Source: Mugil cephalus (lineage: Eukaryota; Chordata; Actinopteri; Mugiliformes; Mugilidae). Taken from it: a DNA stretch of 64,000 nt. Below are positions 4,469 to 62,705 of this stretch, one piece after another. The notes beneath the pieces were generated by a model. It saw only the letters and a program-made list of their open reading frames with translations. It made no database searches and had not been told where the DNA came from. Positions within the stretch are counted from its first letter, which is position 1. Each line of letters starts with the position of its first letter. The DNA is taken from contig NC_061774.1 of NCBI RefSeq assembly GCF_022458985.1, positions 15,338,197-15,402,196 of the forward strand, read 5' to 3'. The position numbers and the translations under genes are program-made.

Positions 4469-4503
<35 letters not shown>

Positions 4504-15945: not shown

Positions 15946-28408
<12,463 letters not shown>

Positions 28409-29530
28409 TGACGGCGACGTGAAACCGACATTGCAACTTTCATGATACCTAAAAGAAGTCAGTAATCCAGTTTATGGCCGACAATTATTTAAAAGATGAT
28501 CTGCATTCACTGTATAGCTGGTAAGGTCTTAAATGTAAAGAAGCTGCACCTGTGATAGGATTAAGACCTCTTGGCTAAGAGGACCTGTTATATGTACTGT
28601 AGTGTGAGACTGTTTTCACATTGTCTGATATTTTAATGTTGCGTTACACATTTCACGTTTTGCAGGAGCAGTTTGCAATGAACAACCACTAGCTAAGGAA
28701 AAACGCTACCGTGAGAATATTTCACAGACAGCTTTGCAACATTTTGGCAATGACCAACAATCAATGAAAGTGCAGATTTGTCAGGATGCTGAAAGTAGAA
28801 TCGGAGGCATGGACGACAAATTACAAAACATCACTATCTTCGAAGATTTTCTGAGTGTATGTAACTTGTGGCTTCTGTTTTTGTTAAATTCTAAATGTGG
28901 GTGCATTTTCACTAAAATGACACCAGATTATTCTACTCTTAAAAGAAGCAAGAGCCTTAGTGATTCTGTCTGAGGAACGCAAGAAATCAAGTTGAAAACA
29001 GAAGTCAAATTTAGTGAATTAAAGGATTAAAGTAAAAAGTGCTTTATACTCTTTCCTTTAGGTCAGAAGCATATTGGCGTGCATGCCAGCTTACGCTCTT
29101 ACGTTAGTGCCATTTGCTAACCTAAGTAAATCATCGGGACACTTTGTGTTATATTAGGAAAATCCATGCAGTACAGTGTACCTTAGTATAATGCACTACT
29201 ATGATTTTTTTTTGTGGAAATGTTATGTAGTGGAGGCAAACTCCCTTTTATTTTTTATCGTAATGTATGTCAAATGTTTACATCCACCACACCTTCAGAT
29301 TTTATTTATTAAATTATTTTACATGTTTTATCTCACATTCTTCTTGTTCTCAATTTGTGGTCCATTATTAAATCAATCCGGTTGTTATATAGATGATCAG
29401 GATGCAGGCTACGGCCAGAAACGGCTGATTTTTAACTGCATCTCTAAACCCAGAAACTAATTGATGTAACTTGTAATGATGAGGATGCATTGCTGATGAA
29501 GGACAAAAAAAAGATCTGAGATGCCCATAT
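28409..29530. other. kif3a 3' UTR and convergent intergenic region
   Basis: This holds the kif3a 3' UTR. No perfect AATAAA is seen in its first kilobase apart from weak ATTAAA variants near 29017. The segment from about 29383 to 29520 (TATAGATGATCAGGATGCAG onward) recurs at the 3' side of other cytokine units (for example 31412 and 34029), so it already belongs to the amplified array. Confidence 0.55.
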
Positions 29531-29532
29531 GA

Positions 29533-29538
29533 TTTATT
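29533..29538 (-). terminator. Polyadenylation signal of cytokine gene T1-1
   Basis: AATAAA on the - strand, about 80 bases past the stop of the gene at 29619. The same arrangement recurs in the other T1 copies. Confidence 0.65.
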
Positions 29539-29618
29539 TATGCAAGTATGAAACCTACAAAAACAATGTGTGAGACAATAAATGTTACATTAGACAATAA
29601 AAGCTGATGTCTGTCACA

Positions 29619-30430
29619 TCATCTTCTGGGATGACCGTGGTTCAAGGTGTAGGTTACACAAGATTGGATTTTTTCCAGAAATGCCCGTATGGGATAAAAG
29701 CCACTTGTTTTCAGGTGACACGTGACATTCTTAATCTGAAGAAGTAAGAAAAAAAAAAGTTAATTTTGAAAATGCACATTTTAAGATCACAAAAAATACC
29801 AAACACGACTAAATTTACATAAAACCTGTTTAACATTATAGATGGTATTAAATATTAGAGGATATGCCGTTTAGATTCACTGTAAATCATTTGACGCTTT
29901 GGCTCGGTGTGAGCCTACAAACAACTCGCTGACATACATGAACTCCCCTTTACCTTGTTGTAGCTATGCAGCCCGTGAGAGAGATTGCCAACATCTGTGG
30001 GGATATTTGGATGTTTTTTCTTTGCTTCCTCCAGAACTTGCTCCGCCAAGCAGAAGAAGTTCTTCTGTGAGGTCAAATCCACTGTTAGTAATGTTGTCCA
30101 ACACAGTCACAGATGTCTTAAACCACTGTAATATCAATAAATGTAAAAGATTTCCAACATACCGGACATGGTGTGTGGTTTCCTGTTATCATTCGCACAT
30201 CTATGCTTAGCTTCAAGAATGACAAGATGAAAATGTCAGTATGTCATAAAACACATTCGACAACATGCAGTTAGTAGATTTCTTACATTTTTCTCAGTCA
30301 AATCTTTGGCTTCTTTTCCAATCGTCTTGAGAAGCTTTTTCTCCTTTTCGTCTGATGCTGCGCAGACCATCACGATCACCATCAGCAGCAGATACCGAAC
30401 ATGTAGCTTCTTCGCGTCTTTGGAAGACAT
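29619..30430 (-). CDS. il4/13: il4/13-like cytokine, type 1 copy 1 (intact)
   Basis: Exons in transcript order: 30430-30287, 30210-30163, 30064-29954, 29735-29619. All introns are phase 0 with GT-AG ends, and the product is 139 residues. Exon 1 gives a signal peptide (MSSKDAKKLH, then YLLLMVIVMVCAA) and helix A. Exon 2 has exactly 16 residues with an N-glycosylation site and Cys (GNHTPCP), the size of mammalian IL4 exon 2. Exon 3 starts KNFFCLAEQVLEEA, like the TFC helix of IL-4. Exon 4 has NVTC and FLEKIQSC. Four cysteines recur in all intact copies. The gene converges on the 3' end of kif3a, as human IL4 and KIF3A do, which is the main support for the family call because sequence identity to known IL-4/13 is low. 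The product would be a secreted type-2 cytokine. Whether it corresponds to teleost il4/13a or il4/13b cannot be told. Alternative: another short-chain helical cytokine. Confidence 0.75.
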
Positions 30431-30497
30431 CTTGAGCCAGTGCTGTCAGGTTGAGCAGAAAAGTTGAACTCCCTACACAGTCTTACTACTGATGCTA

Positions 30498-30503
30498 CTT
30501 ATA
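30498..30503 (-). promoter_or_regulatory. TATA box of cytokine T1-1
   Basis: TATAAG on the - strand (within GCTATAAGTAG) about 70 bases upstream of the start. It is conserved at the same spacing in every T1 unit, and in T2 units as CACTATAAGTAG. A CRE-like TGACGTA lies about 30 bases further upstream. Confidence 0.65.
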
Positions 30504-31124
30504 GCGCCACTGTAACCACTGCTTAGATACGTCAGACTGTTATCAAATTTGATCTTTTACTAAGAAATTATCTGGTCATTCATTATCTCCAGAGTTGCCA
30601 CCAAGAATTGCAGGTCATTACCCAGTATTAATATCTGATGTGTAATTTTTTTTTTTTTGAAGCCACCATGATGCTGATTTCCTTATTGTCTTTCCCACAC
30701 ATAGCTGCATTAATAATGATGAGTTGTATTTCTAATTTTACTGGAGCACCTGTGTCTCTCCTGTATGACAGGCCAAACTGACTTGGTTGTGTAGGCACAC
30801 GGGGAAATATGTAATCAATTTTTAACTTAACACACACATTAGGAAGGAAGGGGAAAATGTGTGTGACAGGAAGAAAAAAAATAAAACCCTGTCAGCTTCA
30901 CTATGCGTTAGTTTGACAGCTTTTGTAACTCGACGCCTGTCCACTTGTTTTTTACAGAACACAGTAAGATGTGATTATTTCAAATAAAATGAATGAAATA
31001 TCGTGTATAGAATTATGTTGTAGTTCTTATAAAGTCATTTGAGAGAAAATGTATCCAGTATATCACAATATATTTTATGTGTCATAAAACACATTCAACA
31101 ACATGCAGTTAGTGGTTTTCTTAC

Positions 31125-31280
31125 AACTTTTTCAGTCTGTCTTGTGGCTTCTTGCGCTGTGTTGAGCATCGTGTGCAACAGTGGTCTACCAGTATTTTGC
31201 AGCGATGGTGTGTAGACCATCACAACCATCATCAATACAAGAATTTGAACATATAAGTTCCTCATGTCTTTTCTAGACAC
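31125..31280 (-). pseudogene. Orphan exon 1 of a type 2 il4/13-like gene
   Basis: It encodes a T2 signal peptide and helix A (residues matching RNLYVQILVLMMVVMVYTPS, then TRQTEKV) with an intact donor GTAAGA. The first codon is GTG where the intact T2 gene has ATG, so translation could only start at the internal Met (codon 6). About 45 bases into intron 1 the homology to other T2 genes breaks at 31080 and passes straight into intergenic array sequence. Exons 2-4 are absent, so this is a deletion relic. Confidence 0.85.
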
Positions 31281-31644
31281 GTTGGGTCAGCGCCCTCAGG
31301 TTGAGCAGGAAAGTTGAACTCCTCACACTCTCTCACTGCTACTTATAGTGCCATCAAGCTGACACTGTGACTTTGGTATTGACGCGTCAAAGGAGAAGCC
31401 ACCATGGTTATATAGATGATCAGGATGCAGGCTACAGCCAGAAACGGCTGATTTTTAACTGCATCTCTAAACCCAGAAACTAATTAATGTAACTTGTAAT
31501 GATGAGGATGCATTGCTGATGAAGGAAAAAAAAAAGATCTGAGATGCCCATATGATTTATTTATGCATAAGTATGAAACCTGCAAAAACAACGTGTAAGA
31601 AAATAAATATTACATTAGACAATAAATAACTGGTGTCTGTCACA

Positions 31645-32462
31645 TCATCTTCTGGGATGACCGTGGTTCAAGGTGTAGTTTACACAACATTGGATTTTTT
31701 CCAGAAATGTCTGTATGTGATAAAATCCATTTGTTTTCAGGTGACACGTGACATTCTTAATCTGAAGAAGTAAGAAAAAAAAAATAAAAAGTTAATTTTG
31801 AAAATGCACATTTTAAGATCACAAAAAATACCAAACACGACTAAATTTACATGAAACCTGTTTAACATTATAGATGGTATTAAATATTAGAGGATATGCT
31901 ATTTAGATTCACTGTAAATCATTTGACGCTTTGGCTCGGTGTGAGCCTACAAACAACTCGCTGACATACATGAACTCCTCTTTACCTTGTTGTAGCTACA
32001 CAGGTTGCGATAGAGATAGTCAACATCTTCGGTGATATTTGGATGTTTTTTCTTTGCTTCCTCCAGAACTTGCTCCGCCAAGCAGAAGAAGTTCTTCTGT
32101 GAGGTCAAATCCACTGTTAGTAATGTTGTCCAACACAGTCACAGATGTCTTAAACCACTGTAATATCAATAAATGTAAAAGATTTCCAACATACCGGACA
32201 TGGTGTTTGGTTTCCTGTTATCATTCGCACATCTATGCTTAGCTTCAAGAATGACAAGATGAAAATGTCAGTATGTCATAAAACACATTCAACAACATGC
32301 AGTTAGTAGATTTCTTACATTTTTGTCAGTCAAATCTTTGGCTTCATTTCCAATCATCTTGAGAAGCGTTCTCTCCTTTTCGTCTGGTTGCGATGCTGCG
32401 TAGACCATCACCATCAGCAGAAGATACTTAACATGTAGCTTTTTCGCATCTTTGGAAGACAT
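31645..32462 (-). CDS. il4/13: il4/13-like cytokine, type 1 copy 2 (intact)
   Basis: Exons: 32462-32319, 32242-32195, 32096-31986, 31761-31645; 139 residues, all phase 0. The signal peptide region is MSSKDAKKLH then YLLLMVMVYAA. Exon 2 carries GNQTPCP. Exon 3 carries KNFFCLAE and then an extra Cys (RNLCSYNK). Exon 4 carries NVTC and EKIQCC, which adds another Cys. These two extra cysteines (one each in exons 3 and 4) are not in copy 1 and could form a third disulfide. Splice sites and frame are intact throughout. Function is as inferred for copy 1. Confidence 0.75.
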
Positions 32463-33166
32463 CTTGAGCCAGTGCTGTCAGGTTGAGCAGAAAAAGTTGA
32501 ACTCCCTACACAGTCTTACTACTGATGCTACTTATAGCTCCACTGTAACCACTGCTTAGATACGTCAGACTGTTATCAAATTTGATCTATTACTAAGAAA
32601 TGCGCTGTTCATTCCTTATCTCCAAGTTAAAACCAAGTATTGCAGGTAAGTTTTTTTTTATTTTATTTTTTTTACACTATAATATAACTGCTGGCTGTTA
32701 GTGAGGTATTTCACTGAAATGACAATGTAAAAAAAAGCTTCTAATCAAATGACGTATACTGAAGTGAATATGTTATGTGTGTAGCATATGTATGTGCTTT
32801 TCCATTATCACATCATTTCTATTTGTCCAAAGGCAAATTTTACTGGTTATGATGGGTGGCTGCAGCCAGAACTGAAATGACAAGAACACAACTAAGATGC
32901 TGTTATCATACAAACGTTGAGCTCGTCTTGGAAAGTTTCACCCTTCAACTTGTGTTGTTACTCGTTTGCTGAACAGTTTTACTCACAACGACGAGGATGC
33001 ATTAGTAAAACTTAGCAGATTATATGCAGAAAAAACAAACACTTTGCCAAACACAAACCACTGTTGAATCATTTATTGGACTATAAACACAAATAGAAAA
33101 ATAAATATTAAATTACGTGATAGATAACTGACATGTAATAAATATGTTAAATAATCCTTCATGTGA

Positions 33167-33885
33167 TCAGCTGTTGTGCAAGACATAGCATGCACACCGT
33201 TCAATTTGTTTCAGAAATTGTCGCACATGATATCAGCCTGTGGTTCTACGGTGACATCGGACACCGTGAAACGAAATCATTTTGACATTTTAAACTCACA
33301 AAACAATGTAGCCCAACAGATCTTAATTTATGTAAACCCTTTTTAACATGAAATATCATATTTAACATTAGAGGATATGTTGTGATCCATTGCAAACTGT
33401 ATGACGCTTTGGTTTTGTGTAGAACTGCAAAGAAAGACATGAACTCCTCTTTACCTTGTTGTACTGGTGCAAGATGCGAGTGAGATTAGAAAGCGTCTTG
33501 TGAGTTGTTTCATTCAGAGCTGCTTCCGCCAAGCAGAAGAACTTCTTCTGTGAGGTCAAAGTCAATGTTAGTAATGTTGTCCAACACAGTCACAGATGTC
33601 TTAAACCACTGTAATATGTCGTCTTCTGTTATCATTGTCACATGTATGTGTAGCTTCAAGGATGACAAGAGAAGAATGTCAGTATGTCATAAAACGCATT
33701 CAACAACATGCAGTTAGTGGTTTTCTTACAACTTTTTCAGTCTGTCTTGTGGCTTCTTGCGTTGTGTTGAGCATCTCTTGCAACAGCGGTCTACCAGTAT
33801 TTTGCAGCGATGGTGTGTAGACCATCACAACCATCATCAATACAAGAATTTGAACATATAAGTTCCTCATGTCTTTTCTAGACAC
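33167..33885 (-). pseudogene. il4/13-like type 2 copy, multiply disabled
   Basis: Exon 1 is 33885-33730 (GTG in place of ATG). The exon 2 region starts at 33653, exon 3 is 33547-33455 (KKFFCLAEAALNETTH), and an exon 4 remnant runs from about 33271 to 33167. Three lesions are visible against the intact T2 at 36.2-37.0 kb. About 40 nt are deleted across the exon 2 donor, so the GTATGT site is gone. The exon 4 acceptor CAG has become CAC. A TGA interrupts exon 4 where the intact gene reads GGC AAA TAT. The relic is unlikely to make a full cytokine. Confidence 0.85.
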
Positions 33886-34255
33886 GTTGAGTCAGCGCTG
33901 TCAGGTTGAGCAGAAAAGTTGAACTCCTCACACACTCTCACTGCTACTTATAGTGCCATCAAGCTGACACTGACTTTGGTATTGACGCGTCAAAGGGGAA
34001 GACACCATATAAGGACTATATGTTGGTTATATAGATGATCATGACGGCAGGCTACAGCCAGAAACAGCTGATTTTTAACCGTGTTTCTCAACCCATAAGT
34101 TACTTGTAATGATGAGGATGCATTGCTGATCAAGGAAAAAAAAAAAAGTCTGAGATGCCCATATGATTTATTCATGTATAAGTATAAAACTTACAAATAC
34201 AATGTGTAAAAAAATAAATATTACATTAGACAATAAATAACTGGTGTCTGTCACA

Positions 34256-35082
34256 TCATCTTCTGGGATGACCGTGGTTCAAGGTGTAGTTTACACAAGA
34301 TTGGATTTTTTCCAGAAATGCCCGTATGAGATAAAAGCCATTTGTTTTCAGTCGACACGTGACATTCTTAATCTGAAGAAGTAAGAAAAAAAATAAATAA
34401 AAAGTTAATTTTGAAAATGTACATTTTAAGATCACAAAAAATACCAAACACGACTAAATTTACATAAAACCTGTTTAACATTATAGATGGTATTAAATAT
34501 TAGAGGATATGCTGTTTAGATTCACTGTAAATCATTTGACGCTTTGGCTCGGTGTGAGCCTACTAACAACTCGCTGACATACATGAACTCCTCTTTACCT
34601 GGTTGTAGCTATGCAGCCTGCGAGTGAGATTGACAACATCTTCGGTGATATTTGAATGGTTTTTCTTTGCTTCCTCCAGAACTTGCTCCGCCAAACAGAA
34701 GAACGTCTTCTGTGAGGTCAAATACACTGTTAGTAATGTTGTCCAACACAGTCACAGATGTCTTAAACCACTGTAATATCAATAAATGTAAAAGATTTCC
34801 AACATACCGGACATGGTGTGTGGTTTTCTGTTATCATTTGCACTTCTATGCTTAGCTTCAAGAATGACAAGATGAAAATGTCAGTATGTCATAAAACACA
34901 TTGAACAACATACAGTTAGTAGATTTCTTACATTTTTGTCAGTCAAATCTTTGGCGTTGCTTCTAATCCTCGTCAGAAGCGTTCTCGCCGTTTCGTCTAC
35001 TTTTGGATGCTGCGTAGACCATCACGATCCCCATCAGCAGCAGATACTGAAAATGCAGCTTCTTCGCGTCTTTGGAAGACAT
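34256..35082 (-). pseudogene. il4/13-like type 1 copy 3, exon 1 frameshift
   Basis: Exon equivalents: 35082-34932, 34855-34808, 34709-34599, 34372-34256. Exon 1 is 151 nt against 150 nt in the closest paralog (40769-40620). One extra G near 35010 shifts the frame just after the signal peptide and leads to a stop about 16 codons later. Exons 2-4 and all splice sites otherwise look intact (KNVTC-type exon 4, FFC in exon 3), so the loss may be recent. A base-calling or assembly error is an alternative. Confidence 0.8.
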
Positions 35083-36135
35083 GTTGAGCCAGTGCTGTCA
35101 GGTTGAGCAGAAAAGTTGAACTCCCTACACAGTCTTACTACTGTCGCTTCTTATAGCGCCACTGTAATCGCTGCTTAGATACGTCAGACAATTATCAAAT
35201 TTGATCTTTTCCTAAGAAATTATCTGGTCATTCATTATCTCCACAGTTGCCACCAAGAATTGCAGTATTAATATCTGATGTGTAATTTTTTTTATTTATT
35301 TTTTTTCAGCACCACCATGATGCTGATTTCCTTATTGTCTTTCCCACACGTAGCTGCATTAATAATGATGAGTTGTATTTATATTGTTACTAGAGCACCT
35401 GTGTCTCTCCTGTATGACAGGCCAAACTGACTGGGTTGTGTAGGCACACGGGGAAATATTTAGTCAATTTTTATCTTAACCCACAGGAAGGGGAAAATGT
35501 GAGTGACAGGAAGAAAAAAAATAAAATCCTGTCAGCTTCAATATGAGTTTACTTCTGGCTAAGAAGACCACCAGACAACTATTATAACTCGACGCCTGTC
35601 CACTTGTTTTTACACAATATAGTAAGTAGTAATTATTTCAAATAAAATGAATGAAATATTGTGTGTAGAATTATATTGTAGTTCTTATAAAGTCATTTGA
35701 GAGAAAATGTATTGGTTGAGTATCTCAGAAAGTAGGTGAACTATAATATAACTGCTGGCTGTTAGTGAGGTATTTCACTGAAATGACAATGTAAAAAGAA
35801 GCTTCTAATCAAATGACCTATACTGAAGTGAATATGTTATGTATGTAGCATATGTATGTGCTTTTCCATTATCACATCATTTCTATTTGTCCAAAGGCAA
35901 ATATTACTGGTTATGATGGGTGGCTGCAGCCAGAACTGAAATGACAAGAACACAACTAAGATGCTGTTGTCATACAAACGTTGAGCTCGTCTCGGAAAGT
36001 TTCACCCTTCAACTTGTGTTGTTACTCGTTTGCTGAACAGTTTTACTCACAACAACGAGGATGCATTAGTAAAACTTAGCAGATTATATGCAGAAAAAAC
36101 AAACACTTGGCCAAACACAAACCACTGTTGAATCA

Positions 36136-36141
36136 TTTATT
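36136..36141 (-). terminator. Polyadenylation signal of the intact type 2 cytokine
   Basis: AATAAA on the - strand (in CCAATAAATGATTC), about 85 bases past the stop at 36223. Confidence 0.6.
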
Positions 36142-36222
36142 GGAATATAAATACAAATAGAAAAATAAATATTAAATTATGTGATAAATAACTGACATCT
36201 AATAAATATGTTAAATAATCCT

Positions 36223-37000
36223 TCATGTGATCCTCTTGCGCAAGACATAGTTCGCACACTGTTCAATTTGTTCCAGAAATCGTTGTAGAGGATATTTGCC
36301 TGTGGTTCTACGGTGACATTGGACATCCTGAAACGAAATCATTTTGACATTTTAAACTCACAAAACAATGTAGGCCAACAGATCTTAATTTATGTAAACC
36401 CTTTTTAACATGAAATATCATATTTAACATTAGAGGATATGTTGTGATCCATTGCAAACTGTATGACGCTTTGGTTTTGTGTGGAACTGCAAAGAACTCC
36501 TGCAAAGTAAGACATGAACTCCTCTTTACCTTGTTGTACTGGTGCAAGATGCGAGTGAGATTAGAGAGCGTCTTGTGAGTTGGTTCTTTCAGAGCTGCTT
36601 CCGCCAAGCAGAAGAACTTCTTCTGTGAGGTCAAAGCCAATGTTAGTAATGTTGTCCAACACAGTGACGGATGTCTTAAACCACTGTAAAATCAATAAAT
36701 GTAAAAGATTTCCAACATACCGGACATGGTGTTTGGTTTCCTGTTATCATTGGCACATCTATGCTTAGCTTCAAGAATGTCAAGAACAGAATGTCAGTAT
36801 GTCATAAAACACATTCAACAAAATCCAGTTATTAGTTTTCTTACCACTTTTTTAGGCTGCTTTTGGACTTCTTGTACTGTCTTGAGCATCGTGTGCAACA
36901 GCGGTCTATCAATTTTGTGCAGTGATGATGTGTAGACTATCACAACCATCATCAATACAAGAATTTGAACATATAAGTTCCTCATGTCTTTTCTAGACAT
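36223..37000 (-). CDS. il4/13: il4/13-like cytokine, type 2, the only intact copy
   Basis: Exons: 37000-36845, 36768-36721, 36622-36530, 36327-36223; 133 residues, all phase 0 with GT-AG introns. The signal peptide is MSRKDMRNLY then VQILVLMMVVIVYTSS. Exon 2 is 16 residues with a glycosylation site and Cys (GNQTPCP). Exon 3 is KKFFCLAEAALKEPTH, six residues shorter than in T1. Exon 4 has VQCHRRTTGKY and FLEQIEQC. The four cysteines align with those of T1. This is the only T2 copy with an ATG at the first codon, a complete exon 2 donor and a good exon 4 acceptor. Exon 2 and intron 2 look like T1 sequence while the flanks look like T2, suggesting gene conversion or retention of the ancestral state. 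The role is inferred to be a secreted type-2 cytokine, as for T1. Confidence 0.75.
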
Positions 37001-37011
37001 GTTGAGTCAGC

Positions 37012-38364
37012 GCTGTAAGGTTGAGCAGAAAAGTTGAACTCCTCACACACTCTCACTGCTACTTATAGTGCCATCAAGCTGACACTGTGGCTTTGGTATT
37101 GACGTGTCAAAGGAGGGAGGGAAGCCACCATATAAGGACTTACGGATGATGTAAATAGTTTTCACCAAATTAGTGTCCATTGCCAAGAAATCATCTGTTT
37201 TTTTCTTATCTGTGGAAAACTAGTGAGGGTGGTCATCAACTTGGGCTAAAAGCTGAAGAAGCAAGGTATGACTTCATCAGAAAAAAAAGAAGGTTTTATT
37301 ATTGTCCCACACATTAGAAAAGGAAAATGTGAGAGACAGTTTAGTTTCTTGCTAATAAGACCACCAGCTGTTATAGTTAGACACCTGCCCACATCTCTTT
37401 TGTATTTATGACTCACTTATTCGCATGACAAGCAAAGTAGTGACTCTGCTTGAATTTCCCTCTGTGATGTTTGAAGCTTTAGGTTGATTACATCTCTGCA
37501 TACTGTCACACGTTCACATCACTTCCACATTTTGCATTTAACACTGATGGCGTCAACTGACAAACATTGAATATGAGCTCCCTCTGCAGGTAGTTTGTTG
37601 CAGCCGAGCATGCAAAGTATTCAACCCTTTATTCAAGTGGTCATGCCTATGTCTGTTTTGCAATTAGAAAGTCCCACTTCCAATTTCAACAGCTAAGTAC
37701 TTACTTAGCATAGTTAGCATCTTTTATTTAACTACATCTATCATAACTGAAATAACCTAAAACTAACTTAAACTAACAGAAACTGAGGCTAATCCACTTT
37801 CCAAATCTATACTAGTTCATATGGATCATTGCCAAGTCCAATTGTCCTCAGTTTGATTTGATAATCCACATTTTCCCCAAGTTTCACTGTATTTAGTGCT
37901 ACATTTCACCGTGTCTTTGCCACTCAGGGGGCGTGGCCCAAGGCGGCAGTGACATCAGTGCATACCCTCTATTGAAGCTGAGATCGTTTTCCAGCACCCT
38001 GGCATAAAGTTTCCTGTGTAGGCTGAGCAGTGTGATAATGGCAGCACACCCTGACACAACTCTGAGAAGGAGAGCTCAACAATACCCAGTCTTCAGCATC
38101 TCTTGTCCACACCCAGCTAGGGAGCTTCTTGGCTACCTCAGGCAACAAGTATCCCCACACCTGTCTGTATATCTGTATATTAATTCCCATTATTCTACAA
38201 CAGAAATCTGTTTTTAATTCATTTTATTTGATACGATTGTCAGCCAATATTATTTCAGGGACAGGGATTTCATGGGACAAGGTGCAAGTATGCTTGTCCA
38301 TCCATTGTCCAATCTGTGGCAATTATTTTTTTGTCAGGCTAAGCTGATGTACATGTGTGTGTGC

Positions 38365-38411
<47 letters not shown>

Positions 38412-39143
38412 GGGGAATTCGCATATTAATAACATACATGAAAGACATCGTTTTGTTTCTAAGTATGATAATATGAAATTTGCTATTTGATATTACAGTA
38501 TAAAACACTTGCAATTCCTGCAACTAGACCCTCTCCAAATTCATAATTTGTCTATTTTCATTGGAGTCAGCCTCAACCAAAAATAAATAAATAAATAAAA
38601 CTAATACAAAATACCATTTGGAACAGCATGAATTTCGTTATATATAACTTGTATAAATAATTGTAAACACTGTGAAATATGTAGGCTATTCGTTTTGTTT
38701 TATAGGGATCTTTGAAATATGTGTCTACATATTAATCCTATATGCGGTTATTTAGGCTATTAGTAGGCACCTTTGTTTACATCTATTTCAGTTACCATTT
38801 TATTTTTGTAATTATTGCAATTTTTGTTAGCTTATATCAACCCCAAAAAAAAATCAAAATAAAATTAAAAAAATGCACACACACACACACACACACTCAC
38901 ACAATTGATGAACAAGTGTCGCCCATCATGTTATCTTATTCACTGCAACGCCTACTTCTCCTACAAAAACTACATAGCCTGAAGAAGAACTTTATCAGCG
39001 CTCACCTAGCCCTGCAGACATGAGCCTATGGCGCAGCGGTGCTTTGATGATGGACCAGTCGGGGCGGCGGCGGTCAGCCAATAGGAGCGCGCACAGGATT
39101 GAGGCTAGTTGCGCCATTTTAATGCGTCCACAGCTATCCGGCA
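37012..39143. repeat. Duplicated atrx-upstream block, copy 1
   Basis: About 2.1 kb runs from a T2 promoter, through non-coding sequence with a (GT)n tract (38353-38411) and a CA tract (about 38875-38902), to a CpG-rich end carrying GGCGGCGGCGGTCAGCCAAT. It is near-identical to 42928-45030 and, for its last 1.8 kb, to 48342-50165. The last of these runs directly into atrx, so copy 1 is a displaced duplicate that includes the atrx promoter (CCAAT at 39078-39082). It ends at CAGCTATCCGG, where cytokine sequence resumes. Confidence 0.85.
37062..37067 (-). promoter_or_regulatory. TATA box of the intact type 2 cytokine
   Basis: TATAAG (- strand, in CACTATAAGTAG) about 65 bases upstream of the start codon. 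About 35 bases further upstream lies TTGACGTGTCAA (37099-37110), an imperfect version of the perfect palindrome TTGACGCGTCAA found in other T2 units, for example near 31378. Confidence 0.6.
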
Positions 39144-39189
39144 TGTAGCCCAACAGAGCTTAATTTATTTAAACCCTTTTTAACATTAA

Positions 39190-39580
39190 GTCGTGTGAGT
39201 TGTTTCATTCAGAGCTGCTTCCACCAAACAGAAGAACTCCTTCTGTGAGGTCAAAGCCACTGTTAGTAATGTTGTCCAACACAGTCACAGATGTCTTAAA
39301 CCACTGTAATATGTCGTCTTCTGTTATCATCGACACATGTATGTGTAGCTTCAAGGATGACAAGAGAAGAATGTCGGTATGTCATAAAACACATTCAACA
39401 ACATGCAGTTAGTGGTTTTCTTACAACTTTTTCAGTCTGCCTTGTGGCTTCTTGCGCTGTGTTGAGCATCTCTTGCAACAGCGGTCTACCAGTATTTTGC
39501 AGCGATGGTGTGTAGACCATCACAACCATCATCAATACAATAATTTGAACATATAAGTTTCTCATGTCTTTTCTAGACAC
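39190..39580 (-). pseudogene. 3'-truncated type 2 il4/13-like copy
   Basis: Exon 1 is 39580-39425 (GTG first codon). The exon 2 region carries the same deletion of about 40 nt over the donor, and exon 3 starts at 39242 (KEFFCLVEAALNETTH). Exon 3 breaks off after about 17 codons at a deletion junction near 39190 that brings in a TAA, and exon 4 is missing. Beyond the junction a short piece of T2 intron 3 is fused to the atrx-promoter block. Confidence 0.85.
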
Positions 39581-39948
39581 GTTGAGTCAGCGCTGTCAGG
39601 TTGAGCAGAAAAGTTGAACTCCTCACACACTCTCACTGCTACTTATAGTGCCATCAAGCTGACACTGTGACTTCGGTATTGACGTGTCAAAGGGGAAGAC
39701 ACCATATAAGGACTATATGTTGGTTATATAGATGATCATGACGGCAGACTACAGCCAGAAACAGCTGATTTTTAACCGTGTTTCTCAACCCATAAGTTAC
39801 TTGTAATGATGAGGATGCATTGCTGATCAAGAAAAAAAAAGTCTGAGATGCCCATATGATTTATTCATGTATAAGTATAAAACCTACAAATACAATGTGT
39901 AGAAAAATAAATATTACATTAGACAATAAATAACTGGTGTCTGTCACA

Positions 39949-40769
39949 TCATCTTCTGGGATGACCGTGGTTCAAGGTGTAGTTTACACAAGATTGGATT
40001 TTGTCCAGAAATGTCCGTATGGGATAAAAGCCATTTGTTTTCAGGTGACACGTGACATTCTTAATTTGAAGAAGTAAGAAAAAAAAAAAAAGTTAATTTT
40101 GAAAATGTACATTTTAAGATCACAAAAAATACCAAACACGACTAAATTTACATAAAACCTGTTTAACATTATAGATGGTATTAAATATTAGAGGATATGC
40201 TGTTTAGATTCACTGTAAATCATTTGACGCTTTGGCTCGGTGTGAGCCTACAAACAACTCGCTGACATACATGAACTCCCCTTTACCTTGTTGTAGCTAC
40301 GCAGGTTGCGATAGAGAATTTTCACATCTTCGGTGATATTTGGATGGTTTTTCTTTGCTTCCTCCAGAACTTCCTCCGCCAAACAGAAGAACTCCTTCCG
40401 TGAGGTCAAATCCACTGTTAGTAATGTTGTCCAACACAGTCACAGATGTCTTAAACCACTGTAATATCAATAAATGTAAAAGATTTCCAACATACCGGAC
40501 ACGGTGTGTGGTTTTCTGTTATCATTCGCACATCTATGCTTAGCTTCAAGAATGACAAGATGAAAATGTCAGTATATCATAAAACACATTGAACAACATG
40601 CAGTTAGTAGATTTCTTACATTTTTGTCAGTCAAATCTTTGGCGTTGCTTCTAATCCTTGTCAGAAGCGTTCTCGCCGTTTCGTCTAGTTTTGATGCTGC
40701 GTAGACCATCACGATCCCCATCAGCAGCAGATACTGAACATGTAGCTTCTTCGCGTCTTTGGAAGACAT
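39949..40769 (-). CDS. il4/13: il4/13-like cytokine, type 1 copy 4 (two acceptors altered)
   Basis: Exons: 40769-40620, 40543-40496, exon 3 ending at 40287, exon 4 ending at 39949. Reading frames are open: a 50-residue exon 1, NHTPCP in exon 2, FFCLAEEVLEEA in exon 3, NVTC and FLDKIQSC in exon 4. Both 3' splice acceptors used by the sister genes are mutated. The exon 3 acceptor reads CACGG instead of CACAG, and the exon 4 acceptor reads TTCAA instead of TTCAG. In each case another AG lies 3 or 6 nt downstream in the same frame, giving starts at 40394 and 40059 and the loss of one and two residues. The gene may therefore still be functional, or may be an early pseudogene. Confidence 0.6.
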
Positions 40770-41739
40770 GTTGAGCCAGTGCTGTCAGGTTGAGCAGAAA
40801 AGTTGAACTCCCCACACAGTCTTACTACTGTCGCTTCTTATAGCGCCACTGTAATTGCTGCTTAGATACGTCAGACGGTTATCAAATGGGATCTTTTACT
40901 AAGAAATTATCTGGTTATTCATTATCTCCACAGTTGCCACCAAGAATTGCAGTATTAATATCTGATTTGTAATTTTTTTTATTTATTTTTTTTCAGCACC
41001 ACCATGATGCTGATTTCCTTATTGTCTTTCCCACACGTAGCTGCATTAATAATGATGAGTTGTATTTATATTATTACTGGAGCACCTGTGTCTCTCCTGT
41101 ATGACAGGCCAAACTGACTGGGTTGTGTAGGCACACGGGGAAATATTTAGTCAATTTTTATCTTAACACACAGGAAGGGGAAAATGTGAGTGACAGGAAG
41201 AAAAAAAATAAAATCCTGTCAGCTTCAATATGAGTTTACTTCTGGCTAAGAAGACCACCAGACAACTATTATAACTCGACGCCTGTCCACTTGATTTTAC
41301 AGTAATACAGTAAGTAGTGATTATTTCAAATAAAATGAATGAAATATTGTGTGTAGAATTATATTATAGTTCTTATAAAGTCATTTGAGAGAAAATGTAT
41401 TGGTTGAGTATCTCAGAAAGTAGGTGAACTATAATATAACTGCTGGCTGTTAGTGAGGTATTTCACTGAAATGACAATGTAAAAAAAAGATTCTAATCAA
41501 ATGACCTATACTGAAGTGAATATGTTATGTGTGTAGCATATGTATGTGCTTTTCCATTATCACATCATTTCTATTTTTCCAAAGGCAAATATTACTAGTT
41601 ATGATGGGTGGCTGCAGCCAGAACTGAAATGACAAGACCACAACTAAGATGCTGTTGTCATACAAACGTTGAGCTCGTCTCGGAAAGTTTCACCCTTCAA
41701 CTTGTGTTGTTACTCGTTTGCTGAACAATGTTACTCACA

Positions 41740-41908
41740 ACGACGAGGATGCATTAGTAAAACTTAGCAGATTATATGCAGAAAAAACAAACACTTTGCC
41801 AAACACAAACCACTGTTGAATCATTTATTGGAATATAAATTCAAATAGAAAAATAAATATTAAATTATGTGATAAATAATTGACATCTAATAAATATGTT
41901 AAATAATT
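41740..41908 (-). pseudogene. Relic 3' UTR of a type 2 cytokine gene
   Basis: This matches the 3' UTR of the intact T2 (36050-36222) up to GTTAAATAAT. It then switches to foreign repeat sequence exactly where the T2 stop codon region would begin. The matching T2 promoter reappears at about 42925-43060 beyond the repeat, so the whole T2 coding region has been replaced. Confidence 0.75.
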
Positions 41909-42924
41909 CGGTAACACTTTCTATGAAGGTTGTAATTATAATCCCCTATGAATGCATCCATAGTATTTTATAAGGTGTCTATAAAGCATTATAATGATCA
42001 TTATTACCATCTATACATATTCACAAGTCGTCATAACCAACTTCATGATGCATTATGACAACTGGTTATGAATGATTATAATTTTAATCTGAATAGTGCA
42101 TTATAAATATGTCAGTATCTGCCTAGTCACTTGTTCATTTTATGATGCATCATAACTACTTTGCTTTGCTAAATGTGTATAGTGATGCATAATGAGTTTT
42201 GACTACTACTATAGTCCTTTATATCTGTAGCTATAAGTATATGTAATAAAGTTATAATAATGTATACATCTCCCTACAGCACACAGTTATAAACAGCTAT
42301 GCAATATCATGAGTGCTATTTGTCAGCTCTAAGTAAAGTGACAAGAATATGACACTATTATTAACAGATGTAAGTTATTATGAGTAATCAAAAGGTGCAA
42401 TGAACTAAGTCCTGAGTCAAACATCTTTACCTCATATGCACAATATTATAAATGACTATGTTAATGTCATAGGTGTTATTTGTCAGCTTTAGGTAACGTA
42501 GTGCAAATGAGGTGTTGTAGATACAAGATTATAAACAAATATGAGGCACAATGAAATGAGAGCCTGGACAGTAAAGACAAAAGGAAAGCATTTAGTTCAC
42601 TTTATTTTCATTTAAACCAACACACATAATCAGAATGATTATCAATGCTCTGAGCACATTACACAAACACATGAAACATGTGAAACAGGCCACAAAAGTG
42701 GCACGGCATTTTCCTGGAGATGTGGCTCTTAAAAGTGCCTTTGGGTTGGTGAGGTGTTTCAGGGTCAGAGGTCAGGAGATGGTTTGACAGCAACTACAAG
42801 AAGAACAGAGGCAAATCTTTAGTGCTCTAGCTGGGTTTGTTTTTTTTTATGCAGAAAGGTTTGATTGAAAACAAATAAACAGATCCCATTTTTTTGTTTA
42901 AAGCAGCCTAATGAGATATTATGT
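41909..42924. mobile_element. Interspersed element replacing a T2 gene, copy A
   Basis: It begins TCGGTAACACTTTCTATGAA, typical of a family of AT-rich fish repeats built from 'cattataatgatcattat'-like segments. It continues to about 42920, where T2 promoter sequence resumes. I see no transposase. The right part (42600-42900) is unrecognised. A second copy lies at 47737-48340. Confidence 0.6.
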
Positions 42925-42927
42925 TGA

Positions 42928-44263
42928 GGAACAGAAAAGTTGAACTCCTCACACACTCTCACTGCTACTTATAGTGCCATCAAGCTGACACTGTGACTTT
43001 GGTATTGACGCGTCAAAGGAGGGAGGGAAGCCACCATATAAGGACTTAAGCAAGATGTAAATAGTTTTCACCCAATTAGTGTCCATTGCCAAGAAATCAT
43101 CTGTTTTTTCCTATCTGTGAACACTAGTAAGGGTGGTCATCAACTTGGGCTAAAAGCTGAAGAAGCAAGGTATGACTTCATCAAAAAAAAGGTTTTATTA
43201 TTGTCCCACACATTAGAAAAGGAAAATGTGAGAGACAGTTTAGTTTCTTGCTAATAAGGCCACCAGCTGTTATAGTTAGACACCTGCCCACATCTCTTTT
43301 GTATTTATGACTCACTTATTCGCATGACAACCGAAGTAGTGACTCTGCTTGAATTTCCCTCTGTGATGGTTGAAGCTTTAGGTTGATTACATCTCTGCAT
43401 ACTGTCACACGTTCACATCACTTCCACATTTTGCATTTAACACTGATGGCGTCAACTGACAAACATTGAATATGAGCTCCCTCTGCAGGTAGTTTGTTGC
43501 AGCCGAGCATGCAAAGTATTCACCCCTTTATTCAAGTGGTCATGCCTATGTCTGTTTTGCAATTAGAAAGTCCCTCTTCCAATTTCAACAGCTAAGTACT
43601 TACTTAGCATAGTTAGCATCTTTTATTTAACTACATCTATCATAACTGAAATAACCTAAAACTAACTTAAACTAACAGAAACTGAGGCTAATCCACTTTC
43701 CAAATCTATACTAGTTCATATGGATCATTGCCAAGTCCAATTGTCCTCAGTTTGATTTGATAATCCACATTTTCCCCAAGTTTCACTGTATTTAGTGCTA
43801 CATTTCACCGTGTCTTTGCCACTCAGGGGGCGTGACCCAAGGCGGCAGTGACATCAGTGCATACCCTCTATTGAAGCTGAGATCGCTTTCCAGCACCCTG
43901 GCATAAAGTTTCCTGTGTAGGCTGAGCAGTGTGATAATGGCAGCACACCCTGACACAACTCTGAGAAGGAGAGCTCAACAATACCCAGTCTTCAGCATCT
44001 CTTGTCCACACCCAGCTAGGGAGCTTCTTGGCTACCTCAGGCAACAAGTATCCCCACACCTGTTTGCATATCTGTATATTAATTCCCATTATTCTACAAC
44101 AGAAATGTGTTTTTAATTCATTTTATTTGATGCTATTGTCAGCCAATATTATTTCAGGGACAGGGATTTCATGGGACAAGGTGCAAGTATGCTTGTCCAT
44201 CTATTGTCCAATCTGTGGCAATTATTGTTTTGTCAGGCTAAGCTGATGTACACGTGTGTGTGT

Positions 44264-44300
<37 letters not shown>

Positions 44301-45030
44301 GGGGAATTCGCATATTAATAACATACATGAAAGACATCGTTTTGTTTCTAAGTATGATAATATGAAATTTGCTATTTGATATTACAGTATAACATTTGCA
44401 ATTCCTGCAACTAGACCCTCTCCAAATTCATAATCTGTCTATTTTCATTGGAGTCAGCCTCAACCAAAAATAATAAATAAATAAAACTAATACAAAATAC
44501 CATTTGGAACAGCATGAATTTCGTTATACATAACTTGTATAAATAATTGTAAACACTGTGAAATATGTAGGCTATTCGTTTTGTTTTATAGGGATCTTTG
44601 AAATATGTGTCTACATATTAATCCTATATGCGGTTATTTAGGCTATTAGTAGGCACCTTTGTTTACATCTATTTCAGTTACCATGTTATTTTTGTAATTG
44701 TTGCCATTTTTGTTAGCTTATATCGCGTTGGCAACTCCAAAAAAAAAACAAAAACAAATAATAAAAAAAAACACACACACACACACTCACATTTGATGAA
44801 CAAGTGTCGCCCATCATGTTATCTTATTCACTGCAACGCCTACTTCTCCCACAAAAACTACATAGCCTGAAGAAGAACTTTATCAGCGCTCACCTAGCCC
44901 TGCAGACATGAGCCTATGGCGCAGCGGTGCTTTGATGATGGACCAGTCGGGGCGGCGGCGGTCAGCCAATAGGAGCGCGCACAGGATTGAGGCTAGATGC
45001 GCCATTTTACTGCGTCCACAGCTATCCAGC
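42928..45030. repeat. Duplicated atrx-upstream block, copy 2
   Basis: Near-identical to 37012-39143, with the T2 promoter at its left edge (a TATA core in CTACTTATAGTG near 42967), a (GT)n tract (about 44252-44300) and a CA tract (about 44769-44790). A CpG-rich end carries a CCAAT box (44966-44970). It ends at the same point (CAGCTATCCAG) and is fused to the same piece of T2 intron, so it shares one ancestral junction with copy 1. Confidence 0.85.
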
Positions 45031-45077
45031 ATGTAGCCCAACAGAGCTTAATTTATTTAAACCCTTTTTAACATTAA

Positions 45078-45468
45078 GTCGTGTGAGTTGGTTCTTTCAG
45101 AGCTGCTTCCGCCAAGCAGAAGAACTCCTTCTGTGAGGTCGAAGCCAATGTTAGTGATGTTGTCCAACACAGTCACAGATGTCTTAAACCACTGTAATAT
45201 GTCGTCTTCTGTTATCATTGACACAAGTATGTGTAGCTTCAAGGATGACAAGAGAAAAATGTCGGTACGTCATAAAATGCATTCAACAACATGCAGTTAG
45301 TGGTTTTCTTACAACTTTTTCAGTCTGCCTTGTGGCTTCTTCCGCTGTGTTGAGCATCTCTTGCAACAGCGGTCTACCAGTATTTTGCAGCAATGGTGTG
45401 TCGACTATCACAACCATCATCGATACAAGAATTTGAACATATAAGTTTCTCATGTCTTTTCTAGACAC
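45078..45468 (-). pseudogene. 3'-truncated type 2 il4/13-like copy (second)
   Basis: Exon 1 is 45468-45313 (GTG first codon). The exon 2 donor deletion and the truncated exon 3 (start 45130) use the same break as the copy at 39190-39580. The common lesions show the two were duplicated after becoming pseudogenes, as parts of a unit of 5-6 kb. Confidence 0.85.
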
Positions 45469-45823
45469 GTTGGGTCAGCGCCATCAGGTTGAGCAGAAAA
45501 GTTGAACTCCTCACACTCTCTCACTGCTACTTATAGTGCCATCAAGCTGACACTGACTTTAGTATTGACGCGTCAAAGGGGAAGACACCATTGGTTATTT
45601 TATAGATGATCATGATGCAGGTACAGCCAGAAACAGCTGATTTTTAACTGTCTCTAACCCATTAAGTTTAAATTGTAATGATGAGGATGCATTGCTGATC
45701 AAGGAAAAAAAAAAAGTCTGAGATGCCCATATGATTTATTCATGTATAAGTATAAAACCTACAAATACAATGTGTAAAAAAATAAATATTACATTAGACA
45801 ATAAATAACTGGTGTCTGTCACA

Positions 45824-46649
45824 TCATCTTATGGGATGACCGTGGTTCAAGGTGTAGGTTACACACATTTGGATTTTTCCCAGAAATGTCTGTATGTGAT
45901 AAAAGCCATTTATTTTCACTTGACACGTGACATTCTTAATCTGAAGAAGTAAGAAAAAAAATAAATAAAAAGTTAATTTTGAAAATGTACATTTTAAGAT
46001 CACAAAAAATACCAAACACGACTAAATTTACATAAAACCTGTTTAACATTATAGATGGTATTAAATATTAGAGGATATGCCGTTTAGATTCACTGTAAAT
46101 CATTTGACACTTTGGCTCGGTGTGAGCCTACAAACAACTCGCTGACATACATGAACTCCCCTTTACCTTGTTGTAGCTACGCAGGTTGCGATAGAGAATG
46201 TTCACATCTTTGGTGATATTTGGATGGTTTTTCTTTGCTTCCTCCAGAACTTCCTTCGCCAAACAGAAGAACGTCTTCTGTGAGGTCAAATCCACTGTTA
46301 GTAATGTTGTCCAACACATTCACAGATGTCTTAAACCACTGTAATATCAATAAATGTAAAAGATTTCCAACATACCGGACATGGTGTTTGGTTTCCTGTT
46401 ATCATTCGCACATCTATGCTTAGCTTCAAGAATGACAAGATGAAAATGTCAGTATGTCATAAAACACATTGAACAACATACAGTTAGTAGATTTCTTACA
46501 TTTTTCTCAGTCAAATCTTTGGCTTCTTTTCCAATCATCTTGAGAAGCGTTCTCTTCTCTTCGTCTGGTTGCGGTGCTGCGCAGACCATCATGATCCCCA
46601 TCAGCAGCAGATACTGAACATGTAGCTTCTTCGCGTCTTTGGAAGACAT
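45824..46649 (-). CDS. il4/13: il4/13-like cytokine, type 1 copy 5 (intact)
   Basis: Exons: 46649-46500, 46423-46376, 46277-46167, 45940-45824; 141 residues, all phase 0 with intact GT-AG sites. The signal peptide region is MSSKDAKKLH then YLLLMGIMMVCAA. Exon 2 carries GNQTPCP. Exon 3 carries KTFFCLAKEVLEEAKKNHPN. Exon 4 carries NVTC and FLGKIQMC and ends GHPIR. It has several private replacements against copy 1 while keeping the cysteines, which suits a gene under constraint. This is the T1 copy nearest to atrx. Confidence 0.75.
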
Positions 46650-46834
46650 GTTGAGCCAGTGCTGTCAGGTTGAGCAGAAAAGTTGAACTCCCTACACAGT
46701 CTTACTACTGTCGCTTCTTATAGCGCCACTGTAACCACTGCTTAGATACGTCAGACGGTTATCAAATGGGATCTTTTACTAAGAAATTATCTGGTCATTC
46801 ATTATCTCCACAGTTGCCACCAAGAAGCACCACC

Positions 46835-46948
46835 ATGATGCTTATTTCCTTATTGTCTTTTCCACACGTAGCTGCATTAATAATGATGAGTTGTATTAAT
46901 ATTGTTACTGGAGCACCTGTGTCTCTCCTGTATGACAGGCCAAACTGA
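46835..46948 (+). other. Recurrent 37-codon open frame between cytokine units
   Basis: A short + strand frame beginning MMLISLLSFPH and ending LLYDRPN, with a good Kozak context (CACCATGATG). It recurs, open and of identical length, at 30668-30781, 35317-35430 and 41004-41117. Each copy lies about 180-250 bases upstream of a T1 promoter in the opposite direction. The N-terminus is hydrophobic. It matches no family I know. It may be a non-coding relic that stays open by chance in recent duplicates. Confidence 0.25.
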
Positions 46949-47569
46949 CTGGGTTGTGTAGGCACACGGGGAAATATTTAGTCAATTTTTAACTTAACAC
47001 ACAGGAAGGGGAAAATGTGAGTGACAGGAAGAAAAAAAATAAAATCCTGTCAGCTTCAATATGAGTTTACTTCTGGCTAAGAAGACCACCAGACAACTAT
47101 TATAACTCAACGCCTGTCCACTTGTTTTTACAGTAATACAGGAAGTAGTGGTTATTTCAAATAAAATGAATGAAATATTGTGTATAGAATAATATTATAG
47201 TTCTTATAAAGTCATTTGAGAGAAAATGTATTGGTTGAGTATCTCAGAAAGTAGGTGAACTATAATATAACTGCTGGCTGTTAGTGAGGTATTTCACTGA
47301 AATGACAATGTAAAAAAAAACTTCTAATCAAATGACGTATACTGAAGTGAATATGTTATGTGTGTAGCATATGTATGTGCTTTTCCATTATCACATCATT
47401 TCTATTTGTCCAAAGGCAAATATTACTGGCTATGATGGGTGGCTGCAGGCAGAACTGAAATGACAAGACCACAACTAAGATGCTGTTATCATACAAACGT
47501 TAAGCTCGTCTCGGAAAGTTTCACCCTTCAACTTGTGTTGTTACTCGTTTGCTGTACAGTTTTACTCAC

Positions 47570-47736
47570 AACGACGAGGATGCATTAGTAAAACTTAGCA
47601 GATTATATGCAGAAAAAACAAACACTTTGCCAAACACAAACCACTGTTGAATCATTTATTGGACTATAAACACAAATAGAAAAATAAATATTAAATTATG
47701 TGATAAATAATTGACATGTAATAAATATGTTAAATA
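47570..47736 (-). pseudogene. Relic 3' UTR of a type 2 cytokine gene (second)
   Basis: Same relationship as at 41740-41908: T2 3' UTR sequence running up to the repeat boundary at TTAAATAAT. Here no T2 promoter follows. Confidence 0.7.
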
Positions 47737-48340
47737 ATTCGGTAACACTTTCTATGAAGGTTGTAATTATAATCCCCTATGAATGCATCCATAGTATTTT
47801 ATAAGGTGTCTATAAAGCATTATAATGATCATTATTACCATCTATACATATTCACAAGTCGTCATAGCCAACTTCATGATGCATTATGACAACTGGTTAT
47901 GAATGATTATAATTTTAATCTGAATAGTGCATTATAAATATGTCAATATCTGCCTAGTCACTTGTTCATTTTATGATGCATCATAACTACTTTGCTTTGC
48001 TAAATGTGCATAGTGATGCATAATGAGTTTTGACTACTACTATAGTCCTTTATATCTGTAGCTATAAGTATATGTAATACAGTTATAATAATGTATACAT
48101 CTCCCTACAGCACACAGTTATAAACAGCTACGCAATATCATGAGTGCCATTTGTCAGCTCTAAGTAAAGTGACAAGAATATGACACTATTATTAACAGAT
48201 ATAAGTTATTATGAGTAATCAAAAGGTGCAATGAACTAAGTCCTAAGTCAAACATCTTTACCTCATATGCACAATATTATAAATGACTATGTTAATGTCA
48301 TAGGTGTTATTTGTCAGCTTTAGGTAACATAGTGCAAATG
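47737..48340. mobile_element. Interspersed element replacing a T2 gene, copy B (truncated)
   Basis: Near-identical to the first 600 bases of 41909-42924. It breaks at about 48340 directly into atrx-upstream sequence, so it lost its right part and the T2 promoter in a private deletion. Confidence 0.65.
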
Positions 48341-48341
48341 A

Positions 48342-49368
48342 TATTATCCCACACATTAGAAAAGGAAAATGTGAGAGACAGTTTAGTTTCTTGCTAATAA
48401 GACCACCAGCTGTTATAGTTAGACACCTGCCCACATCTCTTTTGTATTTATGACTCACTTATTGCCATGACAACCGAAATAGTGACTCTGCTTGAATTTC
48501 CCTCTGTGATGGTTGAAGCTTTAGGTTGATTACATCTCTGCATACTGTCACACGTTCACATCACTTCCACATTTTGCATTTAACACTGGTTGCGTCAACT
48601 GACAAACATTGAATATGAGCTCCCTCTGCAGGTAGTTTGTTGCAGCCGAGCATGCAAAGTATTCACCCCTTCATTCAAGTGGTCATGCCTATGTCTGTTT
48701 TGCAATTAGAAAGTCCCACTTCCAATTTCAACAGCTAAGTACTTACTTAGCATAGTTAGCATCTTTTATTTAACTACATCTATCATAACTTAAATGACCT
48801 AAAACTAACTTAAACTAACAGAAACTGAGGCTAATCCACTTTCCAAATCTATACTAGTTCATATGGATCATTGCCAAGTCCAATTGTCCTCAGTTTGATT
48901 TGATAATCCACATTTTCCCCAAGTTTCACTGTATTTAGTGCTACATTTCACCGTGTCTTTGCCACTCAGGGGGCGTGACCCAAGGCGGCAGTGACATCAG
49001 TGCATACCCTCTATTGAAGCTGAGATCGTTTTCCAGCACCCTGGCATAAAGTTTCCTGTGTAGGCTGAGCAGTGTGATAATGGCAGCACACCCTGACACA
49101 ACTCTGAGAAGGAGAGCTCAACAATACCCAGTCTTCAGCATCTCTTGTCCACACCCAGCTAGGGAGCTTCTTGACACCTGTTTGTATATCCGTATATTAA
49201 TTCCCATTATTCTACAACAGAAATGTGTTTTTAATTCATTTTATTTGATGCTATTGTCAGCCAATATTATTTCAGGGACAGGGATTTCATGGGACAAGGT
49301 GCAAGTATGCTTGTCCATCTATTGTCCAATCTGTGGCAATTATTGTTTTGTCAGGCTAAGCTGATGTA

Positions 49369-49413
<45 letters not shown>

Positions 49414-49878
49414 TGGGGAATTCGACAAATTAATAACATACATGAAAGACGAAAGACATCGTTTTGTTTCTAAGTATGATAATGTGAAATTTGCTATTTG
49501 ATATTACAGTATAACATTTGCAATTCCTGCAACTAGACCCTCTCCAAATTCATAATCTGTCTATTTTCATTGGAGTCAGCCTCAACCAAAAAAAAATAAA
49601 TAAATAAATAAATAAAACTAATACAAAATACCATTTGGAACAGCATGAATTTCGTTATATATAACTTGTATAAATAATTGTAAACACTGTGAAATATGTA
49701 GGCTATTCGTTTTGTTTTATAGGGATCTTTTGAAGTATGTGTCTACATATTTAACCTACATGCGGTTATTTAGGCTATTAGTAGGCACCTTTGTTTACAT
49801 CTATTTCAGTTACCATTTTATTTTTGTAATTATTGCCATTTTTGTTAGCTTATATCGACCCCCCAAAAAAATTAAAAA

Positions 49879-49926
<48 letters not shown>

Positions 49927-62641: not shown

Positions 62642-62705
<64 letters not shown>

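Follow-up and report, generated by a model that had tools for sequence, protein, structure and literature searches.

IL-4 and IL-13 direct type-2 immunity against parasites. IL-4/13 genes in general have four coding exons and three phase-0 introns, and introns are phase 0 in all teleost IL-4/13 genes (PMC5440397). In sea bass and the pufferfish Tetraodon, IL-4/13B is immediately flanked by KIF3A and ATRX (PMC5440397). Extra copies have been reported in sea bass, in medaka (IL-4/13A1 and A2 are tabulated), in salmonids (IL-4/13 B1 and B2, through genome duplication), and in frog and elephant shark, where tandem copies lie in an undivided locus. These reports qualify the premise of a sequence-only reading of the locus described here, which took il4/13a and il4/13b to be usually single genes in teleosts. 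The locus lies in a 64,000 nt stretch of the Mugil cephalus genome, referred to as the window (NCBI RefSeq assembly GCF_022458985.1, contig NC_061774.1, positions 15,338,197–15,402,196 of the forward strand; coordinates below count from its first letter). It appears to hold a tandem amplification of il4/13b, whose open copies would encode secreted ligands with mature parts driven apart by selection; as a whole, this explanation is held with good confidence.

Self-comparison and a repeat search of the window located a direct-repeat array at 29.4–47.7 kb with its genes on the minus strand, the identity between repeat pairs in the self-comparison being approximately 75–98 %. Exon reconstruction recovered five type A and five type B copies that include exon 1, as well as two relics consisting of a B 3′ end alone (Table 1). 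A and B are type labels of this analysis and do not stand for the il4/13a and il4/13b ohnologues; the two types alternate along the array and their proteins are 45–52 % identical. With eight exon peptides as queries, no tblastn match better than E 0.3 was found outside the array. Only A1, A2, A5 and B3 are intact and fully canonical. A4 is open with shifted acceptors, and 5 of the 10 copies (A3, B1, B2, B4 and B5) are broken. The proposal that several ligands serve type-2 immunity is accordingly retained in part: at most five copies are predicted to be able to encode a full protein, and five others are not.

The six reconstructed genes (A1–A5 and B3) have four coding exons, an exon 2 of 48 nt (16 residues) and phase-0 introns. 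Exon lengths are 144 or 150, 48, 111 and 117 nt in A1, A2, A4 and A5, and 156, 48, 93 and 105 nt in B3; the frameshifted exon 1 of A3 is 151 nt. Intron ends are GT–AG except at the exon 3 and exon 4 acceptors of A4, where in-frame AGs are located 3 and 6 nt downstream of the expected positions, giving a product of 138 amino acids (aa) if used and 141 aa otherwise. The predicted products of A1, A2, A4, A5 and B3 are 133–141 aa long, begin with a hydrophobic leader as judged by eye and have four cysteines in common. A2 has two extra cysteines (97 and 126), the second of which makes an adjacent pair resembling turbot 130/131. In four of the five B copies (B1, B2, B4 and B5) the first ATG is replaced by GTG, and a lesion removing the exon 2 donor is common to B2, B4 and B5. 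The minus-strand multi-copy array between kif3a and atrx, its gene structure and the leader-bearing, four-cysteine products had all been described from the letters alone, and reconstruction bears these descriptions out for the genes just named. A conserved stretch of intron 2 was considered as an additional exon and rejected by eye, as exon 3 falls out of frame. Upstream GATA motifs (three each in A1, A3, A4 and A5, two in A2, one in B3, none in B1, B2, B4 and B5) were likewise set aside as not distinctive, the counts for the A copies having P values of 0.05–0.32 against mononucleotide shuffles.

Synteny, gene structure, cysteines, a primer peptide and, weakly, a profile alignment with human IL-4 support assignment of the array genes to the teleost il4/13b family. 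On one side of the array is an ATRX ADD domain (within 53012–53500; PDB search, 1e-31). On the other is a kinesin-2 motor with a Pfam kinesin match and best PDB matches to KIF3B (4e-46) and KIF3C (1.5e-45), no KIF3A chain being among the matches; from its sequence and position we take this gene to be kif3a rather than KIF3B or KIF3C. Since kif3a and atrx are the published flanks of IL-4/13B, the expansion of an il4/13 locus that had been proposed is upheld and can be placed specifically at il4/13b. Cysteines 63, 69, 107 and 127, all in the mature part of A1, parallel C3, C4, C8 and C9 of turbot IL-4/13A, which are at 64, 70, 104 and 130. In both types an exon 2 cysteine is followed six residues on by an exon 3 cysteine, the C3–C4 spacing of turbot IL-4/13A. 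A primer for sea bass IL-4/13B encodes CVKEFSCL on its complementary strand, and the counterpart of this peptide at the exon 2/3 junction in the window is CPK[NTEK]FFCL; A4 matches six of the eight residues, and A1, A2, A3, A5 and B3 match five. A profile built from five window sequences was aligned to human IL-4 over 98 columns with hhalign and scored 22.2 against the mature protein, a value equalled by none of 300 shuffles (maximum 18.7). The four-helix test suggested alongside the initial reading was run with AlphaFold2 on the 37-residue exon 3 piece alone and predicted two helices (2–17 and 22–36; mean predicted local distance difference test score 81), as in human IL-4, whose exon 3 encodes helices B and C.

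The linkage and small size of these genes bear on a different assignment, in which they, or one of the two types, would belong to the IL-3/IL-5/GM-CSF family. Both families are made up of small secreted cytokines, and a doubtful ‘IL-5fam?’ gene is linked with KIF3A in the cyprinids zebrafish and carp (PMC4690019). However, gar IL-5famA, human IL-5 and GM-CSF, as well as human IL-13, scored only 9–15 with the same profile, under the best IL-4 shuffle; both window types have the turbot C3–C4 spacing; and PMC4690019 found no member candidate of this family in teleosts other than cyprinids. Such an assignment is thus considered very unlikely.

Several results weigh against the il4/13b assignment itself. 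The hhalign probability of the IL-4 match is only 7–14 %, human IL-13 gave no match to the five-sequence profile, and the peptide of a second sea bass primer has no clear likeness to the window proteins. Short helical pieces easily come out helical in prediction, which limits the exon 3 model. The family-profile check proposed earlier was negative, in that Pfam returned no IL-4/IL-13 match for the window proteins; neither did a PDB sequence search, and a search of 5.8 billion proteins gave 41 candidates, none at E 1 or better. Failure of these searches is unsurprising, given that even the closest of the relatives compared with sea bass IL-4/13B is only 31.6 % identical to it. Matches to IRAK4 at E 0.1–1 were judged to be chance.

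Among the open A copies, nonsynonymous change is estimated to exceed synonymous change, most clearly in the mature part. For A1, A2, A4 and A5 the ratio of the two rates (omega) was 2.12 (against 1, p 0.018), and model M2a, which placed 42 % of sites at omega 6, was preferred to M1a (p 1.6e-6). Addition of exons 2–4 of A3 gave an omega of 2.26 (p 0.006) and an M1a–M2a p of 4.5e-8. A1, A2 and A5 alone gave 2.30 (p 0.033). For the mature part, omega was 2.50 with four copies (p 0.010) and 4.47 with three (p 0.0036), and the site models gave p values of 2.7e-6 and 7.5e-4, respectively. The signal peptide of the four A copies gave 0.57 (p 0.38). Pairwise omega was above 1 in 5 of the 6 A pairs (range 0.67–2.56). 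These estimates also bear on whether the array is mostly decay, that is, a neutral amplification with one or two working copies while the others drift. Half of the exon-1 copies are indeed broken or truncated, and the splice acceptors of A4, a sixth copy, are damaged, yet relaxed constraint predicts an omega near 1 rather than the 2.5 and 4.5 found in the mature part, and the four cysteines are retained in 5/5 products checked. Decay as the main explanation is unlikely.

Other observations count against selection on the ligand as the cause. The codon models were run with a home-made script, not PAML, and recombination is outside the model. The A2–A4 pair has an omega of 0.67. The signal-peptide test covers only 26 codons, and the naive Bayes list of selected sites includes five signal-peptide codons (12, 18, 20, 23 and 26). 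The 60 bases of 3′ untranslated region (UTR) just past the stop vary at 9 of 59 sites, as exons do, and the 100 bases upstream of A1, A2, A4 and A5 at 9 of 99. Synonymous divergence among the A copies (0.05–0.13) is greater than intron divergence (approximately 0.02), from which it follows that the introns are the unusually alike part. The contrast between variable sites in exons (65/414) and introns (13/392) of A1, A2, A4 and A5 (Fisher p 8e-10; gapped columns dropped) is therefore weaker than it appears, the 3′ UTR being as variable as the exons; the firmer indication of selection lies within codons. In exon 1, 13 of 156 sites vary among the four broken B copies and 24 of 138 among the A copies; 36 of 230 vary in the 250 bases upstream of the same B copies.

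Between the A copies and B3, intron 1 differs by 0.11–0.15, intron 2 by 0.05–0.06, intron 3 by approximately 0.32 and synonymous sites by 0.53–0.59. An intron 1–intron 2 core (36580–36873 and the matching A stretches) is far more alike across A and B than the remaining gene or synonymous sites, which could be due to conversion or to constraint. Patchy gene conversion, either homogenizing introns while sparing exons and 3′ ends or bringing in exons from diverged donors, might account for the pattern of differences in place of selection on the protein. The likeness of this core even between A and B, copy similarity that shifts along the unit, and introns more alike than both synonymous sites and the 3′ UTR are all in keeping with conversion. 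It does not account for the excess of nonsynonymous over synonymous change within exons, seen in all but one of the A pairs and in the maximum-likelihood tests, and is regarded as an improbable substitute for selection.

If the array is a set of selected il4/13b paralogues, its products would be secreted cytokines of the short-chain four-helix type. They would bind an IL-4R-alpha-type receptor with helices A and C, contact a second chain with helices A and D, and signal via STAT6. Under selection acting on the mature part, the copies may have diverged into a set of ligands whose receptor-facing surfaces differ. In human IL-4, Glu9 and Arg88 contribute most of the energy of binding to IL-4R-alpha. 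In the weak alignment available, Ser-His-Gly-Leu of A1 falls on human Asp87-Arg88-Asn89-Leu90, and the Glu9 position is occupied by Lys in A1 and by Thr in A2, A4 and A5. The family alignment places Tyr-Arg-Asn-Leu at the Asp87–Leu90 position in A2, A4 and A5, Thr-Arg-Ile-Leu in B3 and Thr-Arg-Arg-Leu in A3. Differences in receptor surface between copies are offered as a hypothesis on this basis; the leading candidate for a change in, or loss of, binding to IL-4R-alpha is A1. Sea bass IL-4/13B likewise has a histidine at the receptor-binding arginine position, so that the histidine of A1 need not mean loss of binding. A bolder version, conceivable but on balance doubtful, is a diversifying ligand repertoire: il4/13b paralogues would be co-expressed, their surfaces driven apart by, for example, parasite antagonists, and A1, lacking an Arg88 equivalent, would act as an antagonist or with a shifted receptor preference, so that agonists and decoys from the same array would tune type-2 immunity. 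With closely similar copies that differ greatly in the mature protein, a single genome supplies natural variants of the same ligand, and the array would permit side-by-side tests of receptor affinity, antagonist escape and division of labour.

The array would have grown as the teleost il4/13b gene was amplified in tandem within one lineage. In its repeated segments an A gene is accompanied by a broken B gene, twice with a copy of the segment upstream of atrx, and a 3.9-kb unit at 37023–40946 is repeated at 42929–46826 with 95.1 % identity. A single event may have broken B, the damaged gene then being duplicated together with A, which stayed open in three to four units; alternatively, the shared B lesions could have spread by conversion. 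The last 250 bases of the 1.8-kb atrx-upstream segment have a GC content of 0.53 and a CpG observed/expected ratio of 0.82, compared with 0.39 and 0.45 for the entire segment, and both in-array copies retain the GC-rich end, at GC 0.52, along with a single CCAAT box. As a separate observation, these in-array copies might drive antisense transcription of the adjoining gene copies. An AT-rich repeat of approximately 0.6 kb, possibly a transposable element as judged by eye, borders both B-3′-end relics (41920–42510 and 47740–48341).

Tandem arrays are prone to misassembly, and haplotypes or reads wrongly placed in tandem could mimic an amplification. However, the longer aligned units differ by approximately 2–11 %, have private indels and private lesions and are unequally spaced, a degree of divergence that disfavours a simple assembly duplicate. 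Such divergence mostly exceeds usual allelic difference. An artefact of this kind is highly improbable.

Table 1. Features of the il4/13b array and its surroundings in the window. For the ten lettered copies the higher coordinate is the start of exon 1.
Feature	Coordinates	Strand	Remarks
Kinesin-2 gene, read as kif3a, exons in range	16328..27594	+	Convergent with array; motor part tested, remainder by eye
Copy A1	29619..30430	-	Intact, 139 aa; exons 30430-30287, 30210-30163, 30064-29954, 29735-29619; His at human IL-4 Arg88 position
Copy B1	31125..31280	-	Relic; exon 1 alone found, GTG replacing first ATG
Copy A2	31645..32462	-	Intact, 139 aa, six cysteines
Copy B2	33176..33885	-	Pseudogene; GTG start, exon 2 donor and exon 4 acceptor lost, early stop
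Copy A3	34256..35082	-	Exon 1 frameshift; exons 2-4 otherwise open
Copy B3	36223..37000	-	Sole intact B, 133 aa; exons 37000-36845, 36768-36721, 36622-36530, 36327-36223
Copy of atrx-upstream segment	37300..39143		Joined to broken B4 exon 3
Copy B4	39190..39580	-	Relic; GTG start, exon 2 lesion, broken within exon 3
Copy A4	39949..40769	-	Open frame; AG absent at exon 3 and exon 4 acceptors
B-3′-end relic	41428..41907	-	B 3′ end and downstream sequence alone
Copy of atrx-upstream segment	43199..45031		Joined to broken B5 exon 3
Copy B5	45078..45468	-	Relic; GTG start, exon 2 lesion, broken within exon 3
Copy A5	45824..46649	-	Intact, 141 aa
B-3′-end relic	47259..47738	-	B 3′ end and downstream sequence alone
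Segment directly upstream of atrx	48342..50165		Likely source of the two in-array copies
atrx gene body	53012..63717	+	ADD domain tested, SNF2 match below cut-off, remainder by eye

Within atrx, Pfam gave no match for the ADD-domain exon and a SNF2 match at 60103–60342 was below the Pfam cut-off; the 5′ coding exons probably start from about 51.9 kb. Upstream of kif3a, exons on the plus strand at 3798–14000 have Pfam SH3 matches (clear at 13289–13606, below cut-off at 3798–4094) and may belong to an SH3RF-type gene. Minus-strand open stretches at 25020–25742 look by eye like a broken Tc1-type transposase; there was no Pfam match for 25020–25286.

The family is already known; what is new is the array with selection on the ligand. 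No tandem IL-4/13B array was found in the excerpts of open-access literature searched. Teleost IL-4/13B as described in sea bass and Tetraodon has the same neighbours, four coding exons and phase-0 introns, and the sea bass exon 2/3 junction peptide is similar (PMC5440397). Sea bass, however, has one IL-4/13B, whereas ten exon-1 copies of two types are present here, and the open copies show signs of positive selection. At the RAD50 locus of sea bass, IL-4/13A1 and A2 likewise form a tandem IL-4/13 duplication, with products 37.9 % identical, but this comprises two copies and lies at the other ohnologous locus (PMC5440397). The TH2 locus of elephant shark resembles the present one in holding several IL-4/13 genes, named up to IL-4/13D, and differs in belonging to a cartilaginous fish with an undivided locus (PMC4690019). 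Mammalian IL4 is likewise under positive selection, concentrated at receptor-binding epitopes, the driver of which is debated between pathogen antagonism and receptor co-evolution (PMC3017759). In mammals that selection acts between lineages, whereas in M. cephalus it would act between tandem paralogues of one genome.

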